Assembly (NCBI RefSeq): GCF_023806485.1
Contig: NZ_JAMSLR010000001.1
Span: 372,001 to 436,000 of the forward strand
Length of the DNA stretch: 64,000 nucleotides
Source: Thermalbibacter longus
GTDB lineage: Bacteria; Chloroflexota; Chloroflexia; Thermomicrobiales; Thermomicrobiaceae
Reading direction: 5' to 3'
Below the pieces are notes generated by a model. That model saw only the letters and a list, made by a program, of their open reading frames with translations. It did no database searches and was not told where the DNA came from. Made by a program: the position numbers and the translations under genes. This document shows, piece by piece, positions 2,536 through 47,577 of this stretch (position 1 is its first letter; each line of letters begins with the position of its first letter).

Positions 2536-3478
2536 GGTGCACCTGCTTTCGCAGCGCCTGGTACACGTTCAGCCACTCCTCGAGCGAGAGGGTCTCGGCA
2601 CGGCGTCCGGGGTCGATACCGGCCGCTACCAGCGCTGCCTCGACAGTCTGTTTCGGCAACCCGAGGCCGGCGGCCAGCGCGTTCGCCAGTTGCTTGCGCC
2701 GTTGGGCGAAACCTGCCCGCACCATCTGGAAGAAAGGAGCGTGCTCCTCGCGGGGCAGCGGCGTCTCCGCGCGGCGCTCCAGAACGATCACCGCTGACTC
2801 GACCTTCGGTGGCGGCACGAAGGCGCCGGTGCCGATTCGGAAGGCGATGCGCGGCGTAGCGTAGAACTGTGCCGCCACCGAGAGCAGAGCCATGTCAGGC
2901 GGGCGAGCAGCCAGGCGTTCCGCTACCTCGCGCTGTACCATCACCACCAGCCGCGCGGGCGGGTGCTCGCCTGTCAGTAGTCGCTCGATGATGGCCGTGG
3001 CCACCGAATACGGAAGGTTGGCGACGACCTGGTACGGCTGTCCTCCGGTCAGTTCGGCGTAGTCGACCGCGAGCGCGTCGCCGTGGACGATCTCGACATT
3101 CGTGCCTGCGAACTGTCGGCGCAGGTATTCGGCTAGCCTCGCATCCAGCTCGATGGCGATGACCCTTCCGGCGCGAGCCGCCAGCGCCCGGGTCAGCACG
3201 CCGAGGCCCGGGCCGATCTCGACGACGAGGTCACCGTGGCCCAAGCCGGCCAGCTCGGCGATCCGGTGCACGATCTTCTGGTCATGCAGGAAATGCTGGC
3301 CGAGTGCCTTGCTGGGCCGGAGATCCAGGTCGCGCAGCAGCTCACGGATCGGAACGACGTCCACTGTGGCGATCCTCGCTGTTCGGGCCGCGCCGCGCGG
3401 TTGCTGGCGACGAGCTCCCGAGCCGCCGGGGCCCAGCGTTGTCCGGCGACCGGCCAGGCTCTCGCCGAGCTGGATCAC
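2525..3478 (-). CDS. rsmA: 16S rRNA (adenine1518/1519-N6)-dimethyltransferase RsmA/KsgA
   Basis: Dimethylates two adenines in helix 45 of 16S rRNA during small-subunit maturation. The SAM motif VEIGPGLGVLTRAL, the substrate-side motif NLPYSVAT and the N-terminal KALGQHFLHD segment are all present. The GTG at 3478 overlaps the selD stop (GTGA), which supports coupling but gives a 40-residue low-complexity extension; a GTG at 3364 would give the more usual N terminus and is an alternative. Gene order selD-rsmA-ispE runs on the minus strand. Confidence 0.93.
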   Translation of the reverse strand: MIQLGESLAGRRTTLGPGGSGARRQQPRGAARTARIATVDVVPIRELLRDLDLRPSKALGQHFLHDQKIVHRIAELAGLGHGDLVVEIGPGLGVLTRALAARAGRVIAIELDARLAEYLRRQFAGTNVEIVHGDALAVDYAELTGGQPYQVVANLPYSVATAIIERLLTGEHPPARLVVMVQREVAERLAARPPDMALLSVAAQFYATPRIAFRIGTGAFVPPPKVESAVIVLERRAETPLPREEHAPFFQMVRAGFAQRRKQLANALAAGLGLPKQTVEAALVAAGIDPGRRAETLSLEEWLNVYQALRKQVHHAD

Positions 3479-4713: not shown

Positions 4714-5199
4714 CTAAGGCGAGGTCCGCAATCGCCAGACGATACTGCCGGCGAGAAGCGTCTCAGTGACCAGGAATACAGCCCACACCAGCGCCAGTTT
4801 CCCGGTATCCCACCGGTAGGAGCTTTGGTGCTGGGTGACAGTCGTTTCTCCCACCACTACACCGAAGAGCGAGCGCCAGACGACACGGCCTTCTACATGG
4901 TATGGGGTAGGGCCAACCATGCGAGCATCGACCACCTGGGGTGACAGCAGCCAGGCTATCTCGACTCCCGCCGCCGCTTGTGTTCGTAGCCGCCGCAGCG
5001 CCTCATTCGAGACCTCAGGTGCCTGGTCTGGGAAGACCAGAATCGGGATGGCGAAGGCGGCGAAAGACAGCCCAAGCATCGCCATGAAGGCAAGCTGGAG
5101 GAGGCTGGCCCGTGGGCTCACCCGTTTGCTCCCTCGACGGAGCGAGCATCGGACGCGCGGCGTGGAGCGAACACCGCGATCGGTCAGGTGTCGCGTCAC
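4714..5199 (-). CDS. Hypothetical membrane protein, two TM segments
   Basis: A 161-residue protein of no family I recognise. A basic N terminus is followed by a hydrophobic segment (about residues 35-55, LQLAFMAMLGLSFAAFAIP). A soluble region of about 75 residues follows, then a second hydrophobic segment (about 133-153, LALVWAVFLVTETLLAGSIV), so the middle is probably extracytoplasmic. The GTG start overlaps the lysJ stop (GTGA), which suggests it is the last gene of the lysine operon and translationally coupled. No functional link to lysine is visible. Confidence 0.7.
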   Translation of the reverse strand: MTRHLTDRGVRSTPRVRCSLRRGSKRVSPRASLLQLAFMAMLGLSFAAFAIPILVFPDQAPEVSNEALRRLRTQAAAGVEIAWLLSPQVVDARMVGPTPYHVEGRVVWRSLFGVVVGETTVTQHQSSYRWDTGKLALVWAVFLVTETLLAGSIVWRLRTSP

Positions 5200-6374
5200 G
5201 CCGCGTCGAGCGCCGCGGCGATGCCGGCAACGGCTTCGTCTACCTGCTCGCGGGTGATGATCAGCGGCGGCAACAGGCGCACTACCACTGTGCCCGCGGG
5301 GAGAGCGAGCAGGCCGCGCTCCTGCATCGCCTTGAGCACCGGGGTCGATCGGCTCTTCAGCTCGATGCCCAGCATCAGTCCCCGGCCGCGAACCTCGCGC
5401 ACGGCCGGATGTTCGAGCTCGCGCAGCCGGCGCAGAAAGTGGGCACCCACGTCGGCGCTATGCGGGATCAGGCTGTCGACGGCGAGCGTCTCGAGCGTGG
5501 CCAGCCCGGCCGCGCAGGCCAGCGGGTTCCCGCCGAAGGTACTGCCATGCACGCCGGCTGGCAGCGCTGCGGCGATCTCCTCGGTCATCAGCGTCGCGCC
5601 GATGGGCACTCCGTTGGCTAGTCCCTTGGCGACGCACAGCAGGTCGGGTGTGACGCCCGCGTGCTGGCAGGCGAACCAGGCGCCGGTGCGGAAGGCTGTC
5701 TGCACCTCGTCGAAGATCAAGAGCGCGCCTGCCTGGCGCGTCAACTCGCGAGCCGCGCGCAGGTACTCGTCGGGAGCCGGGTAGATGCCGCTTTCGCCCT
5801 GCACCGGCTCGAGGATCACCGCAGCCGTGTGCTCGTCGAGCGCCGCTGTAAGGGTCCCGATGTCGCCGTACGGGACGTGCTCGGCCTCAGCCAGCAGTCC
5901 CGCAAACGGCTCACGGTACTTTTTCTCGGCGGTCGCCGCTAGCGCGCCTAGCGTACGTCCGTGATAGCCGCGCCGCGCAGCCACGATCCTGCGCCGGCCG
6001 GTGGCTGCCCAGGCGAACTTGAGCGCCGCCTCGACTGCTTCCGTCCCCGAGTTCGAGAGGAACGCTCGGGTCAGCCCTGCCGGCGCGACCGCCAGCAGTC
6101 GCTCCAGGAACGCCGCGCGCACGTCACTGGCGAACGACTGGTGGCAGCTCAGCAACCGGCTCGCCTGCTCGATGATGGCGGCGGTGACACGAGGGTGGGC
6201 GTGACCGAGGATGTTCACCCCGTAGTTGCTCATCAGGTCGAGGTAGCGACGGCCATCGGCGTCCCAGAGCCAGATCCCCTCGCCGCGAACCAGTGCCAGG
6301 CCGCGCTTGGCGTACAGGGGCGGCTGCAGCTCGCGGTCGAGCGCGACGATCACCTCAGTGCTTCGGGCAATCAT
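5196..6374 (-). CDS. lysJ: [LysW]-aminoadipate semialdehyde/ornithine aminotransferase
   Basis: A class III PLP aminotransferase of the ArgD/LysJ group, 392 aa. In the LysW pathway it converts LysW-gamma-aminoadipate semialdehyde to LysW-gamma-lysine. SNSGTEAVEAALKFA binds cofactor phosphate, FDEVQTAFRTG is the conserved Asp region, and the PLP lysine lies in CVAKGLANGVPIG. The ATG at 6374 overlaps the lysZ stop (ATGA). A longer open frame upstream is read through in the lysZ region and is not coding. LysJ rather than ArgD is inferred from the lysWXYZK neighbours; in such organisms one set may serve both lysine and arginine. Confidence 0.93.
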   Translation of the reverse strand: MIARSTEVIVALDRELQPPLYAKRGLALVRGEGIWLWDADGRRYLDLMSNYGVNILGHAHPRVTAAIIEQASRLLSCHQSFASDVRAAFLERLLAVAPAGLTRAFLSNSGTEAVEAALKFAWAATGRRRIVAARRGYHGRTLGALAATAEKKYREPFAGLLAEAEHVPYGDIGTLTAALDEHTAAVILEPVQGESGIYPAPDEYLRAARELTRQAGALLIFDEVQTAFRTGAWFACQHAGVTPDLLCVAKGLANGVPIGATLMTEEIAAALPAGVHGSTFGGNPLACAAGLATLETLAVDSLIPHSADVGAHFLRRLRELEHPAVREVRGRGLMLGIELKSRSTPVLKAMQERGLLALPAGTVVVRLLPPLIITREQVDEAVAGIAAALDAA

Positions 6375-7207
6375 GAGCGTACCCCGATCGGGCTGCGCGC
6401 GAGCAGTACCGTGCCCTCGCCGGCCAGCGCCCGGCGGATCGGCTGCGGTACCCGCGCGTCGGCGAAGACAACCTGACCGATACCGGCGCGCACCGCCCGG
6501 CAGCCGGCCTCGACCTTCTTCTTCATCCGCCCGCGCGCGGCCGCCATGGCCGCTTGGATGCTCATCTCGTCGGCGACGTCGATCTCGCGGATGAGCGATG
6601 CTGGGTCGCTCAGGTCGCGGAGCAGCCCCGGCGTGTTCGAGAGGATGACCAGCGCGTCGGCTTGGAGGGCCAGCGCGAGCTGCAGCGAGAGCTTGTCGCC
6701 GTCGACGTTGATCGCCTCGCCGCCGTAGCTCAGCGCCGGAGGGGTGAGGACTGGCAAGTAGCCGTGATCGAGGAGGAGCAGGAGCAGCGAGGGGTCGACT
6801 TCCTCGATGCTCCCGGCGTAGTCGCCGCGCAGCACCTTCGGCTTGCCGTTCTCGATCGCTCTCAAGGTGTCCTTGCGCGGCCCGCGGGCGATCCGGCCGT
6901 CCAGTGCCGCCAGGCCGACCGCGTTGACGCCGCGCGCCTGCAAGCCCTCCACCAGCCGCTTGTTGACCAGGCCGGCGTACACCGCCAGCATCAGATCCAT
7001 CGTCTCGCGGTCGGTGAAGCGGCTCACCTGCCCAGTCGACGACTCGACCAGCCGTGGCTCGCGGCCGAGCCGCCTCGTCCACTCGTCCAGCACGGCGTTG
7101 GCCCCGTGGACGAAGACGATCTTCTCTTCCTGGCTCAGCTCGGCCAGGTCGTCGAGCGTGAAAGCCGGGTCGATCCCGGCGCTGCCTCCGAGCTTGACGA
7201 CGAGCAC
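6371..7207 (-). CDS. lysZ: [LysW]-L-2-aminoadipate 6-kinase
   Basis: An amino-acid kinase of the ArgB/LysZ family that phosphorylates the LysW-bound alpha-aminoadipate side chain. VVKLGGS at the N terminus binds ATP, FVHGANAVLDEW is the LysZ version of the substrate loop, and the NVDGDKLSLQLA and GRMKKKVEAG motifs are intact. I prefer the GTG at 7207 (giving MLVVKLGGS, with GGGAGGGA upstream) over a TTG at 7228. The gene overlaps lysJ by four bases and follows lysY. Confidence 0.92.
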   Translation of the reverse strand: MLVVKLGGSAGIDPAFTLDDLAELSQEEKIVFVHGANAVLDEWTRRLGREPRLVESSTGQVSRFTDRETMDLMLAVYAGLVNKRLVEGLQARGVNAVGLAALDGRIARGPRKDTLRAIENGKPKVLRGDYAGSIEEVDPSLLLLLLDHGYLPVLTPPALSYGGEAINVDGDKLSLQLALALQADALVILSNTPGLLRDLSDPASLIREIDVADEMSIQAAMAAARGRMKKKVEAGCRAVRAGIGQVVFADARVPQPIRRALAGEGTVLLARSPIGVRS

Positions 7208-7271
7208 TTGCGCTCCCTCCCGTGCCAATCGATCGGTACGTCCGGGTCCTGGCTCTGGCGACGATGCTGTC

Positions 7272-8327
7272 TCACAGCGGATGCAGGCCGGGGAACTCCA
7301 AACCGAGCGTCTCCGGGAAGCCCAGCCGGATGTTCATCGCCTGTACCGCCTGCCCGGCCGCCCCCTTCATCAGGTTGTCGATCGCGGACATCACCACGAT
7401 CCGCTGGCGGCCGTTCAAGTCCTCCAGCTCCCAGCCGACGTCGCAATAGTTGGAGCCGGTCAGGATCTTCGGCTCAGGATACCGGTGGATGCCGGTAACC
7501 TCCTTGACGATGCGGACGAACGGCTCCTGGCCGTACATCGCGCGGTAGATCTGCCACAGATCCTTGTCGGTCAGCTCGCGGTTCGGGAAGACGTGCGCGG
7601 TGGCGAGGATGCCACGCACCGCCTCGACGCTCGTCACGCTCAGCCCGATCTGCGGTGCTCTCCCACAGACGGCCAGCTCCTGCAGTACCTCGGCCGTATG
7701 CCGGTGGCCGCTCGGCTTGAAGGGCCGGATCACGCCGCTGCGCTCCGGATGGTGGCTGGCCGGCCCGGCTTCGCCTCCGGCTCCGGATGAACCGACCTTG
7801 GCTTCTATCACGATCGGCATGTCGAGGTCGATGACGCCGGCCCGCGCGAGCGGGGCCAGCCCCAGGATCGCCGCGGTGGAGTTGCAACCCGGCGAGGCGA
7901 TGTACCGCGCCGCGCGGATCTCCTCGCGGTGCAGCTCTGGCAGGCCGTAGACTGCCTGCGCAAGCAGGTCGGGCCGGGGATGCGTCCAGCGGTACCAGGT
8001 CTCGTAGGCGGCCGGATCCCGGAGCCGGAAGTCGGCGCTCAGGTCGATGACGATAGAACCGAGTTCGAGCAGCCGGTCGACCTGCGGCGCGGTCTCGCCG
8101 TGCGGGAGGCAGGCGAAGAGAACGTCGACGCGCTCCAGCTCGTCGGGCGAGACGAACTTGAGCTGGGTGCGCTTGCGGAGGTTCGGGTGGACGGTGTGGA
8201 CGAACTTGCCGGCTCGCGAGCGAGAAGTGACCTGCTTCACCCGCACTTCGGGGTGGCCCAGCAGTAGCCGCAGGAGCTCGCCACCGGTGTAGCCTGACCC
8301 TCCGAGAATAGAGACCTCGATCGTCAT
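7272..8327 (-). CDS. lysY: [LysW]-L-2-aminoadipate 6-phosphate reductase
   Basis: An NADPH-dependent semialdehyde dehydrogenase of the ArgC/LysY family, 351 aa, which reduces the acyl phosphate made by LysZ. GGSGYTGGELLRLL is the nucleotide fold, ASPGCNSTA carries the catalytic cysteine, and the SSGAGGEAGPASHHPE segment followed by HRHTAEV is typical of the family. It starts with ATG at 8327, 25 nt after lysX. The LysY call over ArgC rests on operon context. Confidence 0.93.
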   Translation of the reverse strand: MTIEVSILGGSGYTGGELLRLLLGHPEVRVKQVTSRSRAGKFVHTVHPNLRKRTQLKFVSPDELERVDVLFACLPHGETAPQVDRLLELGSIVIDLSADFRLRDPAAYETWYRWTHPRPDLLAQAVYGLPELHREEIRAARYIASPGCNSTAAILGLAPLARAGVIDLDMPIVIEAKVGSSGAGGEAGPASHHPERSGVIRPFKPSGHRHTAEVLQELAVCGRAPQIGLSVTSVEAVRGILATAHVFPNRELTDKDLWQIYRAMYGQEPFVRIVKEVTGIHRYPEPKILTGSNYCDVGWELEDLNGRQRIVVMSAIDNLMKGAAGQAVQAMNIRLGFPETLGLEFPGLHPL

Positions 8328-8352: not shown

Positions 8353-9243
8353 TCATGCCACAGATGCCCGCATGGCTGGTGCCAGCACCGACCCGCGGGC
8401 TCGCTGGATCACGTAGTCCGCGATCGCTCCGGCGATGTCGATGTGCGTGGTCTGCATCAGTCCTTTGAACTCCACCCCGCCGTTGACTTCGATCACCTTG
8501 AGACCGTCCGGCGTCTCCACGAGATCGACCCCGGCGATCTCGAGCCGGACGACCCGGGCCGCGCGGCAGGCGAGCTGGGCGATCTCCGGCGTCACCGGGC
8601 ACGGTCGCGAGACCGCGCCGCGGGCGACGTTGGTAACCCAGTGCTCGGCTTCACGGTACGACGCGGCGATCACGTCATCGCCGACCACGAAGACACGCAG
8701 ATCGCGTCCGGGTTTGTCGACGTACTCCTGGATGTAAAAGATCCCGTGGTGGAAGGAGCCGAGCGCCCGTTTATGCTCGAGCAGGCTGCGGGCAGCCTGC
8801 GGCGAGTTGACGCGAGCCAGCAGCCGGCCCCAAGAGCCGGTCACCGGCTTGATCACGGCCGGGTAGCCGATCCGCTCCAGCGCCGCGAGCGCTGATTCGG
8901 TGTCGAAGGCGACCGCGGAGTGCAGGGTGGGCAGTCCCGCAGCAGCCAGCACTCGCGTAGTCGCGACTTTGTCATCGGCAGTCGCCATCGCCTGGCTGGT
9001 GTTGACCGTAGGGATGCCTACCGATTCGAAGAGGCGCAGTGCCGTGGCACCCCGGCTGTGTGCCATGCAGCGATCGAGCACCAGGTCGGGCTTCGGCAAG
9101 TCCGCGGGGTCGGTGAGATCGAACACGAGGAACCGGTCGTACAGGCGGATCGGCTCCACTCCACGGTCCGACAGCGCCCGGAGGAGCAGCTTCTCCTCCT
9201 CACGTACCTGCGACAGCAGGACCCCGATGCAGACCTCGCTCAC
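8353..9243 (-). CDS. lysX: Alpha-aminoadipate-LysW ligase
   Basis: An ATP-grasp ligase that joins the alpha-amino group of aminoadipate to the C-terminal glutamate of LysW. ATP-grasp features are intact: KPVTGSWGRLLARV, EYVDKPGRDLRVFVVG, and the metal-binding EVNGGVEFKGL near the C terminus. The LMQTTHIDIA stretch that follows is typical of the LysX/ArgX group. I prefer GTG 9243 (MSEVCIGVLL, with GGGAGCGG upstream); an ATG at 9258 overlaps lysK. A second, degenerate copy lies two genes upstream. Confidence 0.92.
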   Translation of the reverse strand: MSEVCIGVLLSQVREEEKLLLRALSDRGVEPIRLYDRFLVFDLTDPADLPKPDLVLDRCMAHSRGATALRLFESVGIPTVNTSQAMATADDKVATTRVLAAAGLPTLHSAVAFDTESALAALERIGYPAVIKPVTGSWGRLLARVNSPQAARSLLEHKRALGSFHHGIFYIQEYVDKPGRDLRVFVVGDDVIAASYREAEHWVTNVARGAVSRPCPVTPEIAQLACRAARVVRLEIAGVDLVETPDGLKVIEVNGGVEFKGLMQTTHIDIAGAIADYVIQRARGSVLAPAMRASVA

Positions 9244-9245
9244 CG

Positions 9246-10334
9246 CTACCGCTCCCATCGACCGCTACTCATCTGGCCGGCGACCCGCTCGATCGCCAGC
9301 CGCAGAACCGATACCGCTCGCTCGAACTCCTCGATCGACACGTGCTCGTTGGGCGTATGGTCGAGGCGCGAGTCGCCCGGCCCGTAGGCCACGATCGGAC
9401 ATCCCCAAGCTGGGCCGACGATGTTCATATCCGACGTTCCGGTCTTCACCTTCAGCCGCGGCTCGCCCCCTGCTTCGCGGATCGCCGCAAGGAAGGCGCG
9501 GACGAGCGGCGACCGCTTGTCGACCCGGAAGGCCGGAGCGTTCACCGTGACGTTGACCTCACCGGGGCCGGCCAGCCGGCGGGCTGCGGCCACGGCCTCC
9601 TCCGGCGGGACTCCGGGCGGCAACCGGAGACTGGCCCGGAGCCAGGCCTGTTCGGTCAACCCGTCGCTGGCAGTGTTCAGCGCGAGGAGCGTCGGGGTGA
9701 CCTGGTCGAATGATCGAGCCTGGCCGTCACTGCGGGCGAGAGCCCAGTCTCGCAGGGCCAGCCAGTAGCGGACGGCCAGCTCGGCGGCAGTCGTCTCTGG
9801 GCCAGCGGAATGGCCCATGGGGCGGGCGACCCCGTATTCGATCGCGACCGAGCCCTTGTAGCCCAGGACGACGCCGTCCCAGCCACTCGGCTCACCGATC
9901 ACCACCGCAGCGGGCGCCGGCCGGTTCTCGATCAGCCAGTGAGCGCCGCGCGAGCTCATGACCTCTTCCTCGACCGCGCCGACGACGGTGAGCCGCACGC
10001 CGGGCGGCAGCGCTGCCTGGGCCCCCGCCAGCACGAACGCGGCCAGGGGCCCCTTGGCATCGACAGCACCCCGGCCGTAGAGCACGCCGTCGACCCGCCG
10101 CACCGGTACCCAGCCGGGCACCGTGTCGATGTGGCCGAGCAGCATGAGTTCCTGCGGCCCCTCGCCACGGGTACCGACGGCGTTCCCCGCGCCGTCGGGG
10201 CCAGCCTGATAGCCGAGCTCGCGCATCCGCTCGCACAGCCACTCCACCGCGGCCGCCTCCTGGCACGAGAGGCTGGGAATGCGGAGGAACGCTTCGAGAA
10301 ATCCGGCTGTGTCGATCGCCGCGAATGCTGCCAT
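9246..10334 (-). CDS. lysK: [LysW]-lysine/ornithine hydrolase
   Basis: An M20-family metallopeptidase that releases lysine (or ornithine) from LysW, the last step of the pathway. [11 protein letters not shown] carries a zinc His and Asp, [14 protein letters not shown] is the second metal site, [13 protein letters not shown] holds the catalytic glutamate, and DHTPNEHVS near the C terminus supplies the last histidine. Length 362 aa is normal. The ATG directly abuts the stop of the upstream lysX-like gene. Confidence 0.92.
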
Positions 10335-11192
10335 CTAGGCCGACACCCCCTCGCTCGGGATCGCGCTCACCTCGGCCCCCTCCGTCACCACCTCGAGGAG
10401 ATGCTCCACGATCGCCTCAGCGACCGGTACGCCCAGCTCGGCCAGCGAGCGAAACTCGACCAGGTTGCCCGCTGAGATGACCACCTGGCCAGCATCCATC
10501 TCCGCGGCTTCGATCTCGTAGACGCCGCTCCCCAGCCGCTGTGTCACTGCGGCGGCCAGTCGCTCCCACGTTCCGGTCTCGACGAGTTGCCAGCGCTCGT
10601 CCACCAGGCGAGCTGCCGCGATCAGCCGCTGCCCGGCGACGACCAGCCGCACGGTTTGGCTCGGGTCAGCCACTGCTTTCTGCACTAGCACCGCTCGCTC
10701 GTCACCGAGTACCGACCGGTGCTCGACCAGCGCCTCGGCGGCGTCCCGATCCTCGACCAGCGCCACTGGCATCGGCGGGCCGGCACTCAACGATTTGAGG
10801 TAGACCGGATACCCGAGCGTCTCGATCGCCCGGAGGGTCGACTCCGGGCCGAAGCTCGCAACTGTTGGTGGGACGGCGATCTGGCCAGCGAGCATATGCC
10901 GGAGAAAGGCGAGCCGATCGGCCAGCAGCCGGGTCGTCGCGGTTCGGTTGACGACGGTCGTTCCCGTCGATGACAGCAAGGCGGAGAGCGCCACGCTCTC
11001 CGGCGTGGCCAAGGTCCGATCCAGGACTGCCGGCGGCAGGTCGGGTGTATCCACTGCCTGTAGCGCCTGGAGGGGCAGGGCGAGATCGGCTGGCCGCAGC
11101 AGCGTCGCCTCCCAACCGTGGCGAGCCAGAGCGGCGGTGAGTAGCCGCTCTTCGACCCGAAGCCGCTCTGCCAGCAGCGCCACCCGGCTCAT
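10335..11192 (-). CDS. LysX-like ATP-grasp paralogue, probably catalytically dead
   Basis: A 285-residue homologue of LysX lying between lysW and lysK. It keeps the overall LysX plan: RVEERLLTAAL, the TVVNRTATTRLLADR switch region, and VYLKSLSAGPPM where LysX has its ATP-binding KP loop. The acidic and asparagine metal ligands in EVNGGVEFKGL become ISAGNLVEFRSL, and the GSWGR loop is lost. It therefore has the shape of a regulatory or scaffold subunit rather than a ligase. An ArgX role is an alternative but would need those residues. Its place in the operon argues that it is kept for a reason. Confidence 0.8.
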   Translation of the reverse strand: MSRVALLAERLRVEERLLTAALARHGWEATLLRPADLALPLQALQAVDTPDLPPAVLDRTLATPESVALSALLSSTGTTVVNRTATTRLLADRLAFLRHMLAGQIAVPPTVASFGPESTLRAIETLGYPVYLKSLSAGPPMPVALVEDRDAAEALVEHRSVLGDERAVLVQKAVADPSQTVRLVVAGQRLIAAARLVDERWQLVETGTWERLAAAVTQRLGSGVYEIEAAEMDAGQVVISAGNLVEFRSLAELGVPVAEAIVEHLLEVVTEGAEVSAIPSEGVSA

Positions 11193-11196
11193 CGCG

Positions 11197-11352
11197 CTAC
11201 TCGCCCCAATCCTCTTCCTCCGCTGGGGCGAGACCTAGCTCCAGCGGATCCACTGACAGCACCTCGAGGTCGGCGCCGCAGTCCGCGCACTGCACGATCT
11301 CACCGACCTCGACGTCCGATAGGTTCAGCTCGGCACCGCACTCTGGGCACAT
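11197..11352 (-). CDS. lysW: Amino-group carrier protein LysW
   Basis: A 51-residue acidic protein carrying biosynthetic intermediates on its C-terminal glutamate. It begins [10 protein letters not shown], has a second CADCG pair (a small zinc-binding fold), and ends EEEDWGE, the EDWGE tail that defines LysW. AGAGGAG lies upstream of the ATG. It is too short for default gene length cut-offs. It is the first gene of the operon, separated by four bases from the LysX-like gene. Confidence 0.97.
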
Positions 11353-11403
11353 CGTTGAAACCGCTCCTCTCTACTGCGCCTGTTCCGGCGCCATCTTCGG
11401 TCA

Positions 11404-11440
11404 ATGAAAAACGGCGGTGAGTCTCGAAGGCTCACCGCCG
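11404..11440 (-). terminator. Intrinsic terminator in the lysW leader
   Basis: On the minus strand a perfect 10-bp stem (CGGCGGTGAG with CTCACCGCCG, 9-nt loop) is followed by TTTTT. It lies about 50 nt before lysW and downstream of the promoter at 11683-11711, so it sits inside the leader and probably acts as an attenuator for the operon rather than as a gene end. Confidence 0.85.
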
Positions 11441-11682
11441 CCGGGGATCTGCGTTACGCTGCGGAGTCTCAGGCTATGCCGGTTACAGCCATCGACCTCC
11501 CGCTCCCCCGAATGCGGCAGGAGCCCCCAGGCGCCTGGGGGCAGGGATAGGTGCGGGGGTAGCCAGAACGGCACAGACCCCGGCACGAGTCGCGCCAGGT
11601 TTCTCTACCGTCCAGATGAGCGTTTCTCGATTCCGCATCGTAACCGTTCCCTGGTCTCCTGCCACTCGGGACCAGCAGGGAC

Positions 11683-11711
11683 ACTCTAGCACAAGCTGGT
11701 ACAACGCGCAA
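11683..11711 (-). promoter_or_regulatory. Promoter of the lysW operon
   Basis: TTGCGC (11706-11711) and TAGAGT (11683-11688) on the minus strand are separated by exactly 17 bases. Transcription would start near 11676, leaving a leader of about 320 nt before lysW. The leader contains several inverted repeats, a GGAGAC-preceded 51-codon open frame without lysine codon runs, a CCCCCAGG/CCTGGGGG hairpin and the terminator. I do not recognise a known riboswitch consensus. Confidence 0.7.
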
Positions 11712-11771
11712 GCACGTTTCGAGCTCAGGGGCGATCAGAATGCACGCGTTGGCGGCGCGTGCGCTCGCCTG

Positions 11772-11889
11772 GCCCGGCGCTGAAACACCGGGCTCATTTC
11801 CCCAAGCCCCCTCGAAGGGGGCTCATTCTCCTGCACACCGAGCCGGCTTCCTGCCGGCTGTGGCCGGTGAACGCGGGGCTTCAGCCCCG
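11772..11889. repeat. Cluster of four consecutive hairpins in a non-coding region
   Basis: The 783-nt stretch between lysW and the copper ATPase holds, besides the two promoters, four inverted repeats: 11772-11793 (GCCCGG/CCGGGC), 11805-11823 (AGCCCCC/GGGGGCT), 11841-11859 (AGCCGGC/GCCGGCT) and 11874-11889 (CGGGGC/GCCCCG, loop TTCA). No coding frame in the stretch looks real. It could be a structured RNA, a bidirectional terminator cluster or a REP-like element. Confidence 0.6.
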
Positions 11890-12043
11890 TGCTCGACGGT
11901 GCCGGGAGACCAGCACGGCAGGTGAAGAGGCAGTGGATCGAGCTATCTCGATCAGTCCGGCGTCGCTCGATCAATCCATAAAGGCCGGAAAGCACGCCAC
12001 TGCCGCGTGCTGACAGGTGGTTGAGCAGACAGGAGGGTAACCC

Positions 12044-12072
12044 TTGGTGTATATACCCCTAGGGGGTATAAT
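12044..12072 (+). promoter_or_regulatory. Copper-responsive promoter with CsoR-like operator
   Basis: TTGGTG and TATAAT are spaced by 17 bases. The -10 and spacer overlap a dyad, TATACCCCTAGGGGGTATA (12052-12070), which has the AT-flanked, C-run/G-run layout known for CsoR operators. It lies 64 nt before the copper ATPase gene, so repression by a CsoR-type regulator relieved by Cu(I) is likely. No csoR gene is in the window. Confidence 0.75.
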
Positions 12073-12135
12073 CCTGGTCGAGCAGTGATGCCCCGGCAGC
12101 GATGCCGAGGTCGAAGGTAGTCCGAAGGAGCTGTC

Positions 12136-14286
12136 ATGCACGCAGAGCATCACACCCACGGCGGGGAGCAGCCGGAAGCAGGCGCCACTCGCCATGAGGC
12201 ATCCCCGACGGAGCACGCTCATCACCACCACCCGATGCCGCCGCATGGGGTAGCGCACGCCGTCCATCTCGCCGGTTCAGCCGAGGGCCAGCGCGTGCCC
12301 CACGCGGAGCACGCCGAGCACGCGATGCATAGCCCGGAGGTCTTCCGGCGCCAGTTCTGGGTCTCGCTGATCCTCAGCGTCCCGGTGATCCTCTACGCCG
12401 AGACGGTGCAGAGCCTGCTGGGCTATCGCGCGCCCGAGTTTCCCGGCTCGACGTGGATCTCGCCGTTGCTCAGCGCAGTCGTCTTCCTTTACGGTGGCAG
12501 CGTCTTCTTGCGCGGCGCGGCCGACGAGCTGCGGTCCCGGCTGCCGGGGATGATGACGCTCGTCGGACTGGCCATCAGCGTCGCCTTCGCTTACAGCCTG
12601 GCGACCACGCTCGGTCTACCTGGCGAGCCGTTCTACTGGGAGCTTGTGACGTTGATCGATGTCATGCTGCTGGGGCACTGGCTCGAGATGCGGGCGGTGG
12701 GGCGCGCTCGCGGCGCGCTGGCCGAGCTGGCCAAGCTCCTCCCTAGCACCGCCGAGCGGATCGTCGATGGCAGAACTGAAGAGATCCCGGTAAGCGAGCT
12801 GCGGCCTGGCGACCTGGTGCTGGTGCGGCCCGGCGCCAAGGTGCCGGCCGACGGAGTGGTGGAGAGCGGGGAGTCCGAGGTCAACGAGGCGATGGTGACC
12901 GGCGAGTCGCGGCCGGTCGCCAAGAGGCCGGGTGACCGCGTCATCGGTGGGACAGTAAACGGGAACGGTTCTCTGCGGGTCCGAGTAACGAACATCGGAG
13001 AAGAGTCGTTCCTCGGGGAGGTAATGCGGATCGTCGAGCAGGCGCAGCAGTCGCGCACCCGGATGCAGCGGCTCGCCGATCGGGTGGCGTTCTGGTTGGT
13101 GCTGGTGGCGCTCTCGGTCGGCGCGATCAGCTTCGTCGCCTGGCTGGTGACGACAGGTTCGCTGACCGAGGCAGTCGCCCGCGCGGTCACCGTCATGGTG
13201 ATCGCCTGCCCGCACGCGCTGGGGCTGGCCATTCCGCTGGTCATCGCCATCTCGACCGCGCTCTCGGCTCAACGCGGCATTCTGGTGCGCGACCGTACCG
13301 CCTTCGAGCGTGCCCGGCTCGTCACGACGGTGGTCTTCGACAAGACCGGGACGCTCACTCGTGGGGAGCTGGGAGTCACCGATGTCGCTGTCGAGCCGGC
13401 ATGGGACGAGCAAGAAGCGGTTCGGCTCGCAGCCTCGATCGAGGCCGAGTCGGAGCATCACATCGCGCGGGCCATCCGGCGACTGGCCGAGGAGCGCCGG
13501 CTGGATCTCGTGCCTGCCGTGAAGGTCGAGGCGCTGCCCGGGCGTGGCATCCAGGCTCAGGTGGACGGTCGCCCGATGCAGGTAGGGGGCCCACAGCTCC
13601 TCAGAGAGTTGAATCTGGCACTCCCTCGTGCGCTGGACGAGCAAGTGCGCCGCTGGGGCGAGGAGGGGAAGTCGATCGTCTACCTGATTGCCGACGGCAG
13701 CGTGGCAGCAGCCTTCGCGCTGGCCGACCAGATCCGGCCTGAGTCGTACGAGGCGGTGCGACAGCTCAAGCACATCGGTGTGCGGGTGGCGATGTTGACC
13801 GGGGACAGCGAGGACGTGGCTCGCTGGGTGGCACGGGAGCTCGGCATCGATGAGTACTTCGCGCAGGTGCTGCCGGCGGAGAAGGCGGACGTGGTCGAGA
13901 AGCTGCAAGGCCGGGGTGAGTCCGTGGCGATGGTGGGTGACGGCATCAACGACGCGCCGGCTCTGGTGACCGCCGACGTCGGAATCGCCATCGGCGCCGG
14001 GACGGACGTGGCCATCGAGAGCGCCGACATCGTGCTCGTCCGCAACGACCCGCGGGATGTTGTCACGGTGCTGGCGCTGAGCCGGACCAGCTACCGGAAG
14101 ATGGTACAAAACCTGCTCTGGGCCACCGGCTACAACGCGGTCGCGATCCCTCTGGCCGCCGGCGTGCTGGCGCCGGTCGGAGTAGTCCTGGCACCAGCGG
14201 TCGGCGCGCTCTTGATGTCAGTAAGCACGATTATCGTTGCGATCAACGCGCTGCTGCTGCGCCGGGGAACCATGTCCGCAGCCTGA
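12136..14286 (+). CDS. copB: Copper-translocating P-type ATPase, CopB (CPH) class
   Basis: A P1B-type ATPase of 716 aa exporting copper across the cytoplasmic membrane. It has a His-rich N terminus (about residues 1-60) instead of CxxC metal-binding domains. The membrane metal site is CPH (about residues 358-360), with actuator loop MVTGES, phosphorylation motif DKTGT (Asp about 402), SEHHIARAI in the nucleotide domain, and hinge [15 protein letters not shown] with a His-rich tail is the CopB subclass, linked to Cu(I)/Cu(II) or Ag export. The CsoR-like operator upstream fits this role. Confidence 0.94.
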
Positions 14287-46200: not shown

Positions 46201-47577
46201 CGAATCGTTTCGCGTTTCGACAGTACCTATGAGGGCTTGAAACCGACCATCCGAGCTGCACGGCTCTCGCAACCTATCGTTTCGACAGTACCTATGAGGG
46301 CTTGAAACCAGCATGGCTGAACAGTGGACGTCCCACGACCTCGCAGTTTCGACAGTACCTATGAGGGCTTGAAACCTGTCTACGCGTACAGAGCACGCGT
46401 AGCGTAGGCGCGCGTTTCGACAGTACCTATGAGGGCTTGAAACCTCTCTCGCTCCGCTAGTGCCTCTCGTCGCCTGCTGTTTCGACAGTACCTATGAGGG
46501 CTTGAAACGCTATCAGCGCCGCTGGGCAGGCGTTGCAAAGCAGGTTTCGACAGTACCTATGAGGGCTTGAAACTCGGCTGGCTGCACGCCCCAGAGGGCC
46601 CCATCGCCATGTTTCGACAGTACCTATGAGGGCTTGAAACATTGGTTGCCAACGCTGTGATGGTCGCCCAGGTCGTGGTTTCGACAGTACCTATGAGGGC
46701 TTGAAACTGAGGGCCAGCCCGAGCCGCTGGCGCAGGCCCCGGTGGGTTTCGACAGTACCTATGAGGGCTTGAAACCCGCCTCGTCTGGTGTCTCGCCCTC
46801 TGCGAACGTGAAGTTTCGACAGTACCTATGAGGGCTTGAAACTACTGCGTCGCGAGGAGAGGAGGCGCGCGATGTCAAGGTTTCGACAGTACCTATGAGG
46901 GCTTGAAACCGGGGAGAACCGGAGCGAACGATGCCCTGCAGTGTGTTGTTTCGACAGTACCTATGAGGGCTTGAAACAACGGAGAAGGCGCTGGACCGAG
47001 CCGTGCCGAACGGTTTCGACAGTACCTATGAGGGCTTGAAACCTACCGAGGGCGTGGAAGCGGATCACCCAGGGGTAACCCGTTTCGACAGTACCTATGA
47101 GGGCTTGAAACCGAGATGACCCGCACGAGCGACAATGGGCGACGCGAGTTTCGACAGTACCTATGAGGGCTTGAAACTTGCGCCGCCACCTGGCGCTCCT
47201 CCTCCGGGAGCTGGTTTCGACAGTACCTATCAGGGCTTGAAACCACGACGACGATGGGTTTCCAGTCCATGAGCCCATGTTTCGACAGTACCTATGAGGG
47301 ATTGAAACATCGTCCCGCCGCGTCTCCCGGAGCTGCCGCACGAGGCTTTGACAGTACCTATGAGGGCTTGAAACCCGCCTCGCCGCCAGGAGGAGTTCCT
47401 GGACGCCTAGTTTCGACAGTACCCATGAGGGCTTGAAATTAGGGAGGGAGGGATTGGGATAAGCGAGGTCAGCGCGCTGCGTTTCCACAGTGCGGATGAG
47501 GGCTTGAAGCTCTGTCTTCCACGAGAGTTCGGGGGGCAGCCCGGTTGGTTCCGATTGTACCTGGGTGGGCGCAAGAC
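43276..47577 (+). CRISPR. Type I-B CRISPR array, 65 repeat units with a decayed distal end
   Basis: The repeat is 30 nt, beginning GTTTCGACAG and ending GGCTTGAAAC. By direct counting there are 59 identical copies from 43276 to 47177. Then come single- or double-mismatch copies at 47214, 47279, 47345 and 47410, a five-mismatch copy at 47481 and a vestige at 47548 (20 of 30 matches). Units repeat every 64-72 nt, giving 64 spacers of about 34-42 nt. The decay at the end far from the leader fits addition of new spacers next to cas2. No two spacers looked identical. Confidence 0.98.

Follow-up and report, generated by a model that had tools for sequence, protein, structure and literature searches.

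The leader of the lysW operon of Thermalbibacter longus probably controls an ornithine/arginine operon of the LysW-carrier type by ribosome-mediated transcription attenuation. It was studied in a window of 64,000 nucleotides (contig NZ_JAMSLR010000001.1, positions 372,001 to 436,000), whose numbering is used throughout, and was compared with the leaders of related genomes. This sequence comparison establishes a short ORF, a peptide motif within it, an intrinsic terminator, alternative RNA pairings, and their conservation.

The lysW operon, its promoter and its likely product

The leader and the operon lie on the minus strand. The elements of the leader are:

11706-11711, minus strand: -35 hexamer TTGCGC, from sequence
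11683-11688, minus strand: -10 hexamer TAGAGT, from sequence; the TGTGC before it is extended -10-like
11656-11663, minus strand: GGCAGGAG, Shine-Dalgarno-like region 5' of the leader ORF, able to pair with strand 2
11483-11638, minus strand: leader ORF, 51 aa, ATG...TAA, MRNRETLIWTVEKPGATRAGVCAVLATPAPIPAPRRLGAPAAFGGAGGRWL; a homologous in-frame ORF is present in 16/16 relatives
11516-11557, minus strand: conserved 14-codon motif PAPIPAPRRLGAPA, from comparison of the relatives' leaders
11534-11536, minus strand: invariant AGG arginine codon, putative control codon, AGG in 16/16
11523-11542, minus strand: hairpin GCCCCCAG/CUGGGGGC within the motif (strand 1 and part of strand 2), from folding
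11517-11524, minus strand: strand 2, GCUCCUGC, the A-P-A codons and 5' half of the antiterminator, from pairing in relatives
11429-11441, minus strand: strand 3, GCGGCGGUGAGCC, 3' half of the antiterminator and 5' arm of the terminator, from pairing in relatives
11407-11442, minus strand: intrinsic terminator hairpin and U tract, from folding and conservation in relatives

The promoter was found as originally predicted (TTGCGC-17-TAGAGT, 11711-11683, spacing 17 nt), and the predicted leader length of about 320 nt agrees with the ∼324 nt between the lysW ATG at 11352 and a start inferred near 11676. These leader coordinates were correct, but the ORF within them had been overlooked. The promoter is weak by consensus, and a sigma-70 scan lists none there. 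A -10-like hexamer occurs at a near-constant distance, 123-134 nt 5' of the peptide motif, in 15 of 16 relatives (no match in L012), and is preceded by TTGCGC or TTGCAC in eight of the 16. The whole leader folds with an MFE z-score of -2.98, equaled by none of 100 shuffles.

Several features were also observed outside the leader. GC-rich inverted repeats (GGGGCTTCAGCCCC and similar) are clustered at 11800-11900, in the stretch that separates the lysW promoter from a copper/heavy-metal P-type ATPase gene (12136-14286); L004 has a similar repeat 5' of its lysW. Just before the ATPase gene is the palindrome TATACCCCTAGGGGGTATA (12052-12070), which resembles a CsoR-type operator. A single repeat matches Rfam CRISPR-DR2 at 47279-47308 (minus strand, 37.2 bits, gathering score 37).

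The operon comprises the following genes:

11197-11352, minus strand: lysW, amino-group carrier protein, first gene of the operon (TIGR01206, 76.7 bits, over cut-off)
10335-11192, minus strand: diverged LysX-like ATP-grasp gene (TIGR02144, 86.3 bits, below the cut-off of 275.6)
9246-10334, minus strand: lysK-type [LysW]-lysine/ornithine hydrolase (NF003367, 453 bits)
8353-9258, minus strand: lysX/argX (TIGR02144, 304.8 bits, over cut-off)
7272-8327, minus strand: argC/lysY reductase (TIGR01850, 404.9 bits)
6371-7228, minus strand: argB/lysZ kinase (NF010659, 407.3 bits)
5196-6395, minus strand: argD/lysJ transaminase, start approximate (TIGR00707, 420.7 bits, over cut-off)

L038 shares the order of the first four genes, and in L034 lysW is followed by ORFs of the corresponding kinds (lysK and lysX recognized by eye only); the diverged LysX paralogue lies directly 3' of lysW in both, as it does in the window.

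LysW pathways can serve either lysine or arginine, and the lysine context assumed in the original prediction is probably wrong here. Among the 21 genomes of the window's family (f1), LysA and ArgG each score over the cut-off in 17, the window's own included, and ArgJ in none; in a sister family (L015), an ornithine carbamoyltransferase gene (353 bits) stands directly before lysW. Taken together, these observations make it most likely that lysine comes from diaminopimelate and that the lysW operon supplies ornithine for arginine. A lysine role could still hold in two genomes, since G122 (99% complete) has no LysA match and G125 has a homocitrate-synthase match over the cut-off. Genes named argW and argX are described in a haloarchaeon (PMC10433800).

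A conserved peptide encoded in the leader

Searches for lysW succeeded in 123 of the 158 class genomes, and within f1 in 16 of 21. In all 16 of these lysW-bearing genomes, an in-frame ORF upstream of lysW encodes the motif P-A-x-[I/K]-[P/R]-A-P-R-x-x-x-[A/T]-P-A, 174-268 nt before the lysW start. Neither lysW nor the motif was found in the five others (G106, G108, G109, G119 and G121; completeness 54-87%). As a DNA pattern, the motif matches 17 of the 158 class genomes, namely the 16 of f1, upstream of lysW, and G042 of family f7, and 12 of 400 genomes in a phylum sample, namely ten of f1 and two others; the G042 match and the two other phylum-sample matches are taken as chance. The reversed pattern has no match in either set, and the leader peptide has none among plasmid records.

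In the window, the ORF runs from an ATG at 11638 to a TAA at 11485-11483, between the promoter and the terminator. The inferred start codon is ATG in 12 and GTG in four of the 16 leaders and lies 69-90 nt (23-30 codons) before the motif in every one. Counts out of 16 were computed on all 16 leaders, which include near-identical rows (12 distinct 42-nt blocks, seven distinct 24-nt blocks) and so do not represent 16 independent events. The peptide alignment (A1) holds 13 of them, with L008, L010 and L016 left out.

Conservation within the ORF follows the codons. Seven of the 14 motif codons keep one residue in all 16 leaders (P, A, A, P, R, P, A). The arginine codon among them is AGG in every leader, and the other six show changes at the third base alone. 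Between genera, amino-acid identity exceeds nucleotide identity in codons 0-7 (0.87 vs 0.81) and in codons 11-13 (0.96 vs 0.86), and falls to 0.18 vs 0.39 over the 23 codons before the motif and to 0.27 vs 0.39 over codons 14-22 after it. Residue agreement is 191 in the ORF frame vs 157 and 153 in frames 1 and 2. The agreement observed in the 42-nt block was equaled by none of 2000 column shuffles, and that in codons 0-7 (seven distinct rows) by 18 of 5000, counts that are not strict probabilities because shuffling disregards relatedness. By these comparisons, the motif is under coding selection and belongs to an ORF placed, as in an attenuator, between promoter and terminator.

Codon choice is also restricted. 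AGG makes up 12 of 345 arginine codons (3.5%) in 13 window genes and five of the 63 other arginine codons in the 16 leaders, and each leader carries this rare codon once in invariant position, without a run of control codons. Proline codons at the motif positions are CCC or CCT in 75 of 75 cases, and CCG accounts for 153 of 254 proline codons in the window genes. The invariance of a rare AGG, together with the exclusive use of CCC and CCT, indicates that nucleotides are constrained as well as residues.

Competing RNA pairings and ribosome position

The strong U-tailed terminator of the original prediction is borne out by folding: the hairpin at 11442-11407 has an energy of -22.4 kcal/mol (z = -5.2; equaled by none of 200 shuffles) and is followed by UUUUU. 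A pattern scan for terminators had no match there, presumably because the loop exceeds the limit of the scan. Conservation had been named beforehand as a point on which the prediction could fail; the arm GCGG[C/T]GGTGAG and the terminator hairpin are common to all 16 relatives, with U tracts broken up in several (L005, L006, L008 and L010).

The 5' arm of this terminator has a second predicted partner. Strand 2, GCUCCYGC in the RNA, can pair with strand 3 around one bulged U, and nine pairs are standard in 16/16 leaders. The comparison of leaders proposed as a covariation check revealed two pairs changed on both sides, one from G-C to U-G in two leaders and the other from G-C to A-U in one leader, with G-U in two others. 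The energy of the 2:3 duplex is equaled or bettered by no more than 27 of 300 shuffles in 14 of the leaders; in L013 and L014 it is no better than in shuffles (136 and 140 of 300). By sequence, the leaders thus carry a conserved antiterminator and a conserved terminator that are mutually exclusive, the arrangement of an attenuator, and this competition supports the predicted control by premature termination.

Two further pairings are less general. The segment 11560-11516, which contains the motif hairpin, folds with -17.9 kcal/mol, but its z-score is only -1.2. Pairing of strand 2 with the Shine-Dalgarno-like region stands above shuffles (at most 10 of 300 as good) in only 7/16 leaders, so no universality is claimed for it; sequestration of this region was therefore rejected as a general second state.

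The predicted antiterminator was folded with the ribosome in several positions. For a ribosome with AGG in the A site and RNA ending at strand 3, strands 2 and 3 pair with a mean probability of at least 0.94 in every one of the 16 leaders, at 37 as well as at 60 °C. If the ribosome is left out and the RNA again ends at strand 3, the value spans 0.00 to 1.00. When codon 13 occupies the P site, the ribosome hides strand 2, which makes the probability zero by construction, and a ribosome at the stop codon gives mixed values among leaders; footprint lengths for masking are assumed values. In the trp leader, a ribosome that has reached the stop codon covers strand 2, a feature not common to all attenuators. 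In the window leader, ∼30 nt separate strand 2 from the stop codon 3' of it, and a ribosome at that codon would thus leave strand 2 uncovered, unlike in trp. Once strand 4 is included, the terminator prevails at equilibrium in almost every leader, even when the A site holds AGG, and the switch is seen only in RNA that ends at strand 3; the proposed switch must therefore be kinetic, relying on the order of synthesis.

These data suggest a mechanism for which we infer translation of the ORF, stalling within it, arginine as the signal and the direction of control. RNA polymerase would make the leader with a ribosome trailing on the ∼50-codon ORF. When arginine, or Arg-tRNA for the rare AGG, is scarce, the ribosome would wait in the proline-rich P-A-P-R stretch, leaving strand 2 (the A-P-A codons) free to pair with nascent strand 3; this pairing would block the terminator, and lysW and the genes behind it would be transcribed. 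When arginine is plentiful, the ribosome would move on, perhaps pausing over A-P-A, and cover strand 2, so that strand 3 would pair with strand 4 and transcription would stop. Several observations count against this mechanism. Textbook attenuators have several control codons, and here there is just one invariant arginine codon; the position of the stop codon past strand 2, the predominance of the terminator at equilibrium, the unremarkable 2:3 energies of L013 and L014, the interrupted U tracts and the G122 and G125 exceptions weigh in the same direction.

The attenuator could be operated in two ways, whose support is about equal: a hungry-codon version is favored because AGG is rare and invariant, and an arrest-peptide version because the P and A residues are conserved. 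Under the second, a possibility given somewhat more than one chance in three, the nascent chain P-A-x-[I/K]-P-A-P-R-x-x-x-A-P-A would itself stall the ribosome with A-P-A at the peptidyl-transferase center, and free arginine (or ornithine) would help the stall, so that strand 2 is covered and the terminator forms (arginine high, operon off). The six residues that are invariant in 16/16 besides arginine, between variable flanks, argue for such a role, as does the end of the motif, which is where a ribosome would cover strand 2 and where, by construction, codon 13 in the P site masks it. The 23-30 codons from start to motif in all 16 leaders also fall in the length range of known regulatory nascent chains. 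However, RNA pairing of GCUCCYGC partly accounts for the A-P-A conservation, a peptide effect would not need AGG to be invariant as a codon, the motif has no RAPP/RAGP-type arrest sequence, and the uniform CCC/CCT usage (75/75) suggests further nucleic-acid constraints.

Under the purely codon-based, classical version, put at about one chance in three, only Arg-tRNA charging at AGG would matter, and RNA structure would keep the other residues. This version agrees with the rarity and invariance of AGG and with the folding result that a stall there frees strand 2 in 16/16 leaders, but it does not account for codons 0, 1, 5 and 6, which keep their residue and vary at the third base in a way unexplained by RNA structure; moreover, the sequences of the g4 leaders show no evident local AGG hairpin of the same form. 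Both sets of observations would fit a mixed version, with the proline-rich chain slowing the ribosome just at AGG and so sharpening a single-codon sensor.

Other readings fare less well than attenuation. The original prediction had suggested a new RNA sensor; this is not the best reading, because the leader encodes a conserved peptide, which makes a translating ribosome the likelier sensor. An RNA-only riboswitch binding a metabolite would explain why the alternative pairings are stable and conserved, but it is improbable given that conservation is codon-periodic in the ORF frame, that the coding sequence flanking the motif drops to 39% nucleotide identity between genera, that no conserved ligand core was seen, and that the leaders scanned match no Rfam family. 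At gathering thresholds, a cmscan of the window returned nothing in the lysW leader, and a permissive scan of 11180-12140 gave rsmX, PVT1_4, a sobemovirus element and BASRCII26, all far below their gathering scores. Five homologous leaders (L002, L005, L010, L011 and L013), whose loci were searched whole, likewise gave no Rfam match. The T-box (RF00230) and lysine riboswitch (RF00168) models match neither the window leader nor these five, as the original prediction had anticipated. A programmed +1 frameshift at CCC-AGG, by which a ribosome short of Arg-tRNA would run through and melt the terminator, is consistent with the invariant CCC/CCT-AGG and with a +1 frame open past the terminator in L001, but such read-through is rejected because of +1-frame stops before the terminator in 6/16 leaders (L005, L006, L009, L010, L012 and L016), leaving this reading a negligible chance.

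Some other lysW genes of the phylum have different leaders. In another family of the class, L019 carries a T-box-like leader before lysW (2029-1747, minus strand; 68.2 bits against RF00230, E 5.8e-14, below the gathering score of 93), with a specifier that resembles AAG (Lys) by eye from the alignment. Two Ardenticatenia contigs (L042 and L049) share a different small ORF, noted by eye, which ends in KSK..KKPDPGSG*, lies at most ∼250 nt before lysW (match at 3001) and is followed 3' by a hairpin with a T run; it is possibly a lysine leader peptide. The L019 leader and the L042/L049 ORF together suggest that lysW operons in the phylum may have acquired different amino-acid sensors.

Relation to known attenuators and arrest peptides

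Searches of the open-access literature, which takes in few subscription papers, yielded no report of such a leader. The closest architecture is that of the trp, his, leu and thr leader peptides, which are ribosome-mediated transcription attenuators. The lysW leader shares with them a promoter, a short ORF and a mutually exclusive antiterminator and terminator before an amino-acid operon. It differs in its one invariant AGG, the putative control codon, in place of a run, its conserved multi-residue peptide motif, a stop codon past strand 2, and an operon of the LysW-type ornithine/arginine kind. Ribosome-mediated attenuation of an arginine operon would, if confirmed, be placed in Chloroflexota, arginine synthesis in Thermomicrobia would gain a ribosome-based switch, and the likely pathway is corrected from lysine to ornithine/arginine.

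SpeFL is an amino-acid-sensing arrest peptide, and so is TnaC (PMC8429421). Both resemble the lysW leader in having conserved residues in a short leader peptide before an amino-acid gene, but they differ from it in motif, and the lysW leader, in which arrest is putative, would repress biosynthesis rather than induce catabolism. ApdA, ApdP, ApcA and SecM are RAPP-like arrest peptides (PMC10987492; PMC10951233), which likewise have a conserved uORF stretch rich in Arg, Ala and Pro; the lysW leader, in contrast, precedes metabolic and not sec/yidC genes, and its motif is PAPR...APA, with no R-A-P-P or R-A-G-P found near the C-terminus of the leader peptide. RAPP-like motifs feature in a survey of sec/yidC arrest peptides, whose main text contains no words beginning Chloroflexi, Thermomicrobi or Sphaerobacter (PMC10987492).

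T-boxes (RF00230) share amino-acid-responsive antitermination and have a likeness before lysW in L019, but the window's lysW leader has no match to them. A comparative study of Actinobacteria reported that no conserved RNA structure precedes their arginine operons, and it cites arginine T-boxes from elsewhere (PMC1262725).

A more novel reading, given a little more than one chance in four, is that free arginine is sensed by the leader peptide within the ribosome by way of a new arrest motif, PAx[I/K]PAPRxxxAPA, which would end transcription of the arginine operon. Because the compact peptide is conserved as amino acids, the hungry-codon and arrest-peptide models can be told apart directly. In fungi, the arginine attenuator peptide is an upstream peptide responding to arginine, as is proposed for the lysW leader; the lysW leader is likened to it by description, and differs in being bacterial and in its predicted action by transcription termination. 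If the arrest-motif reading is true, the lysW leader would be a bacterial, convergent counterpart of the fungal peptide in a thermophilic lineage.
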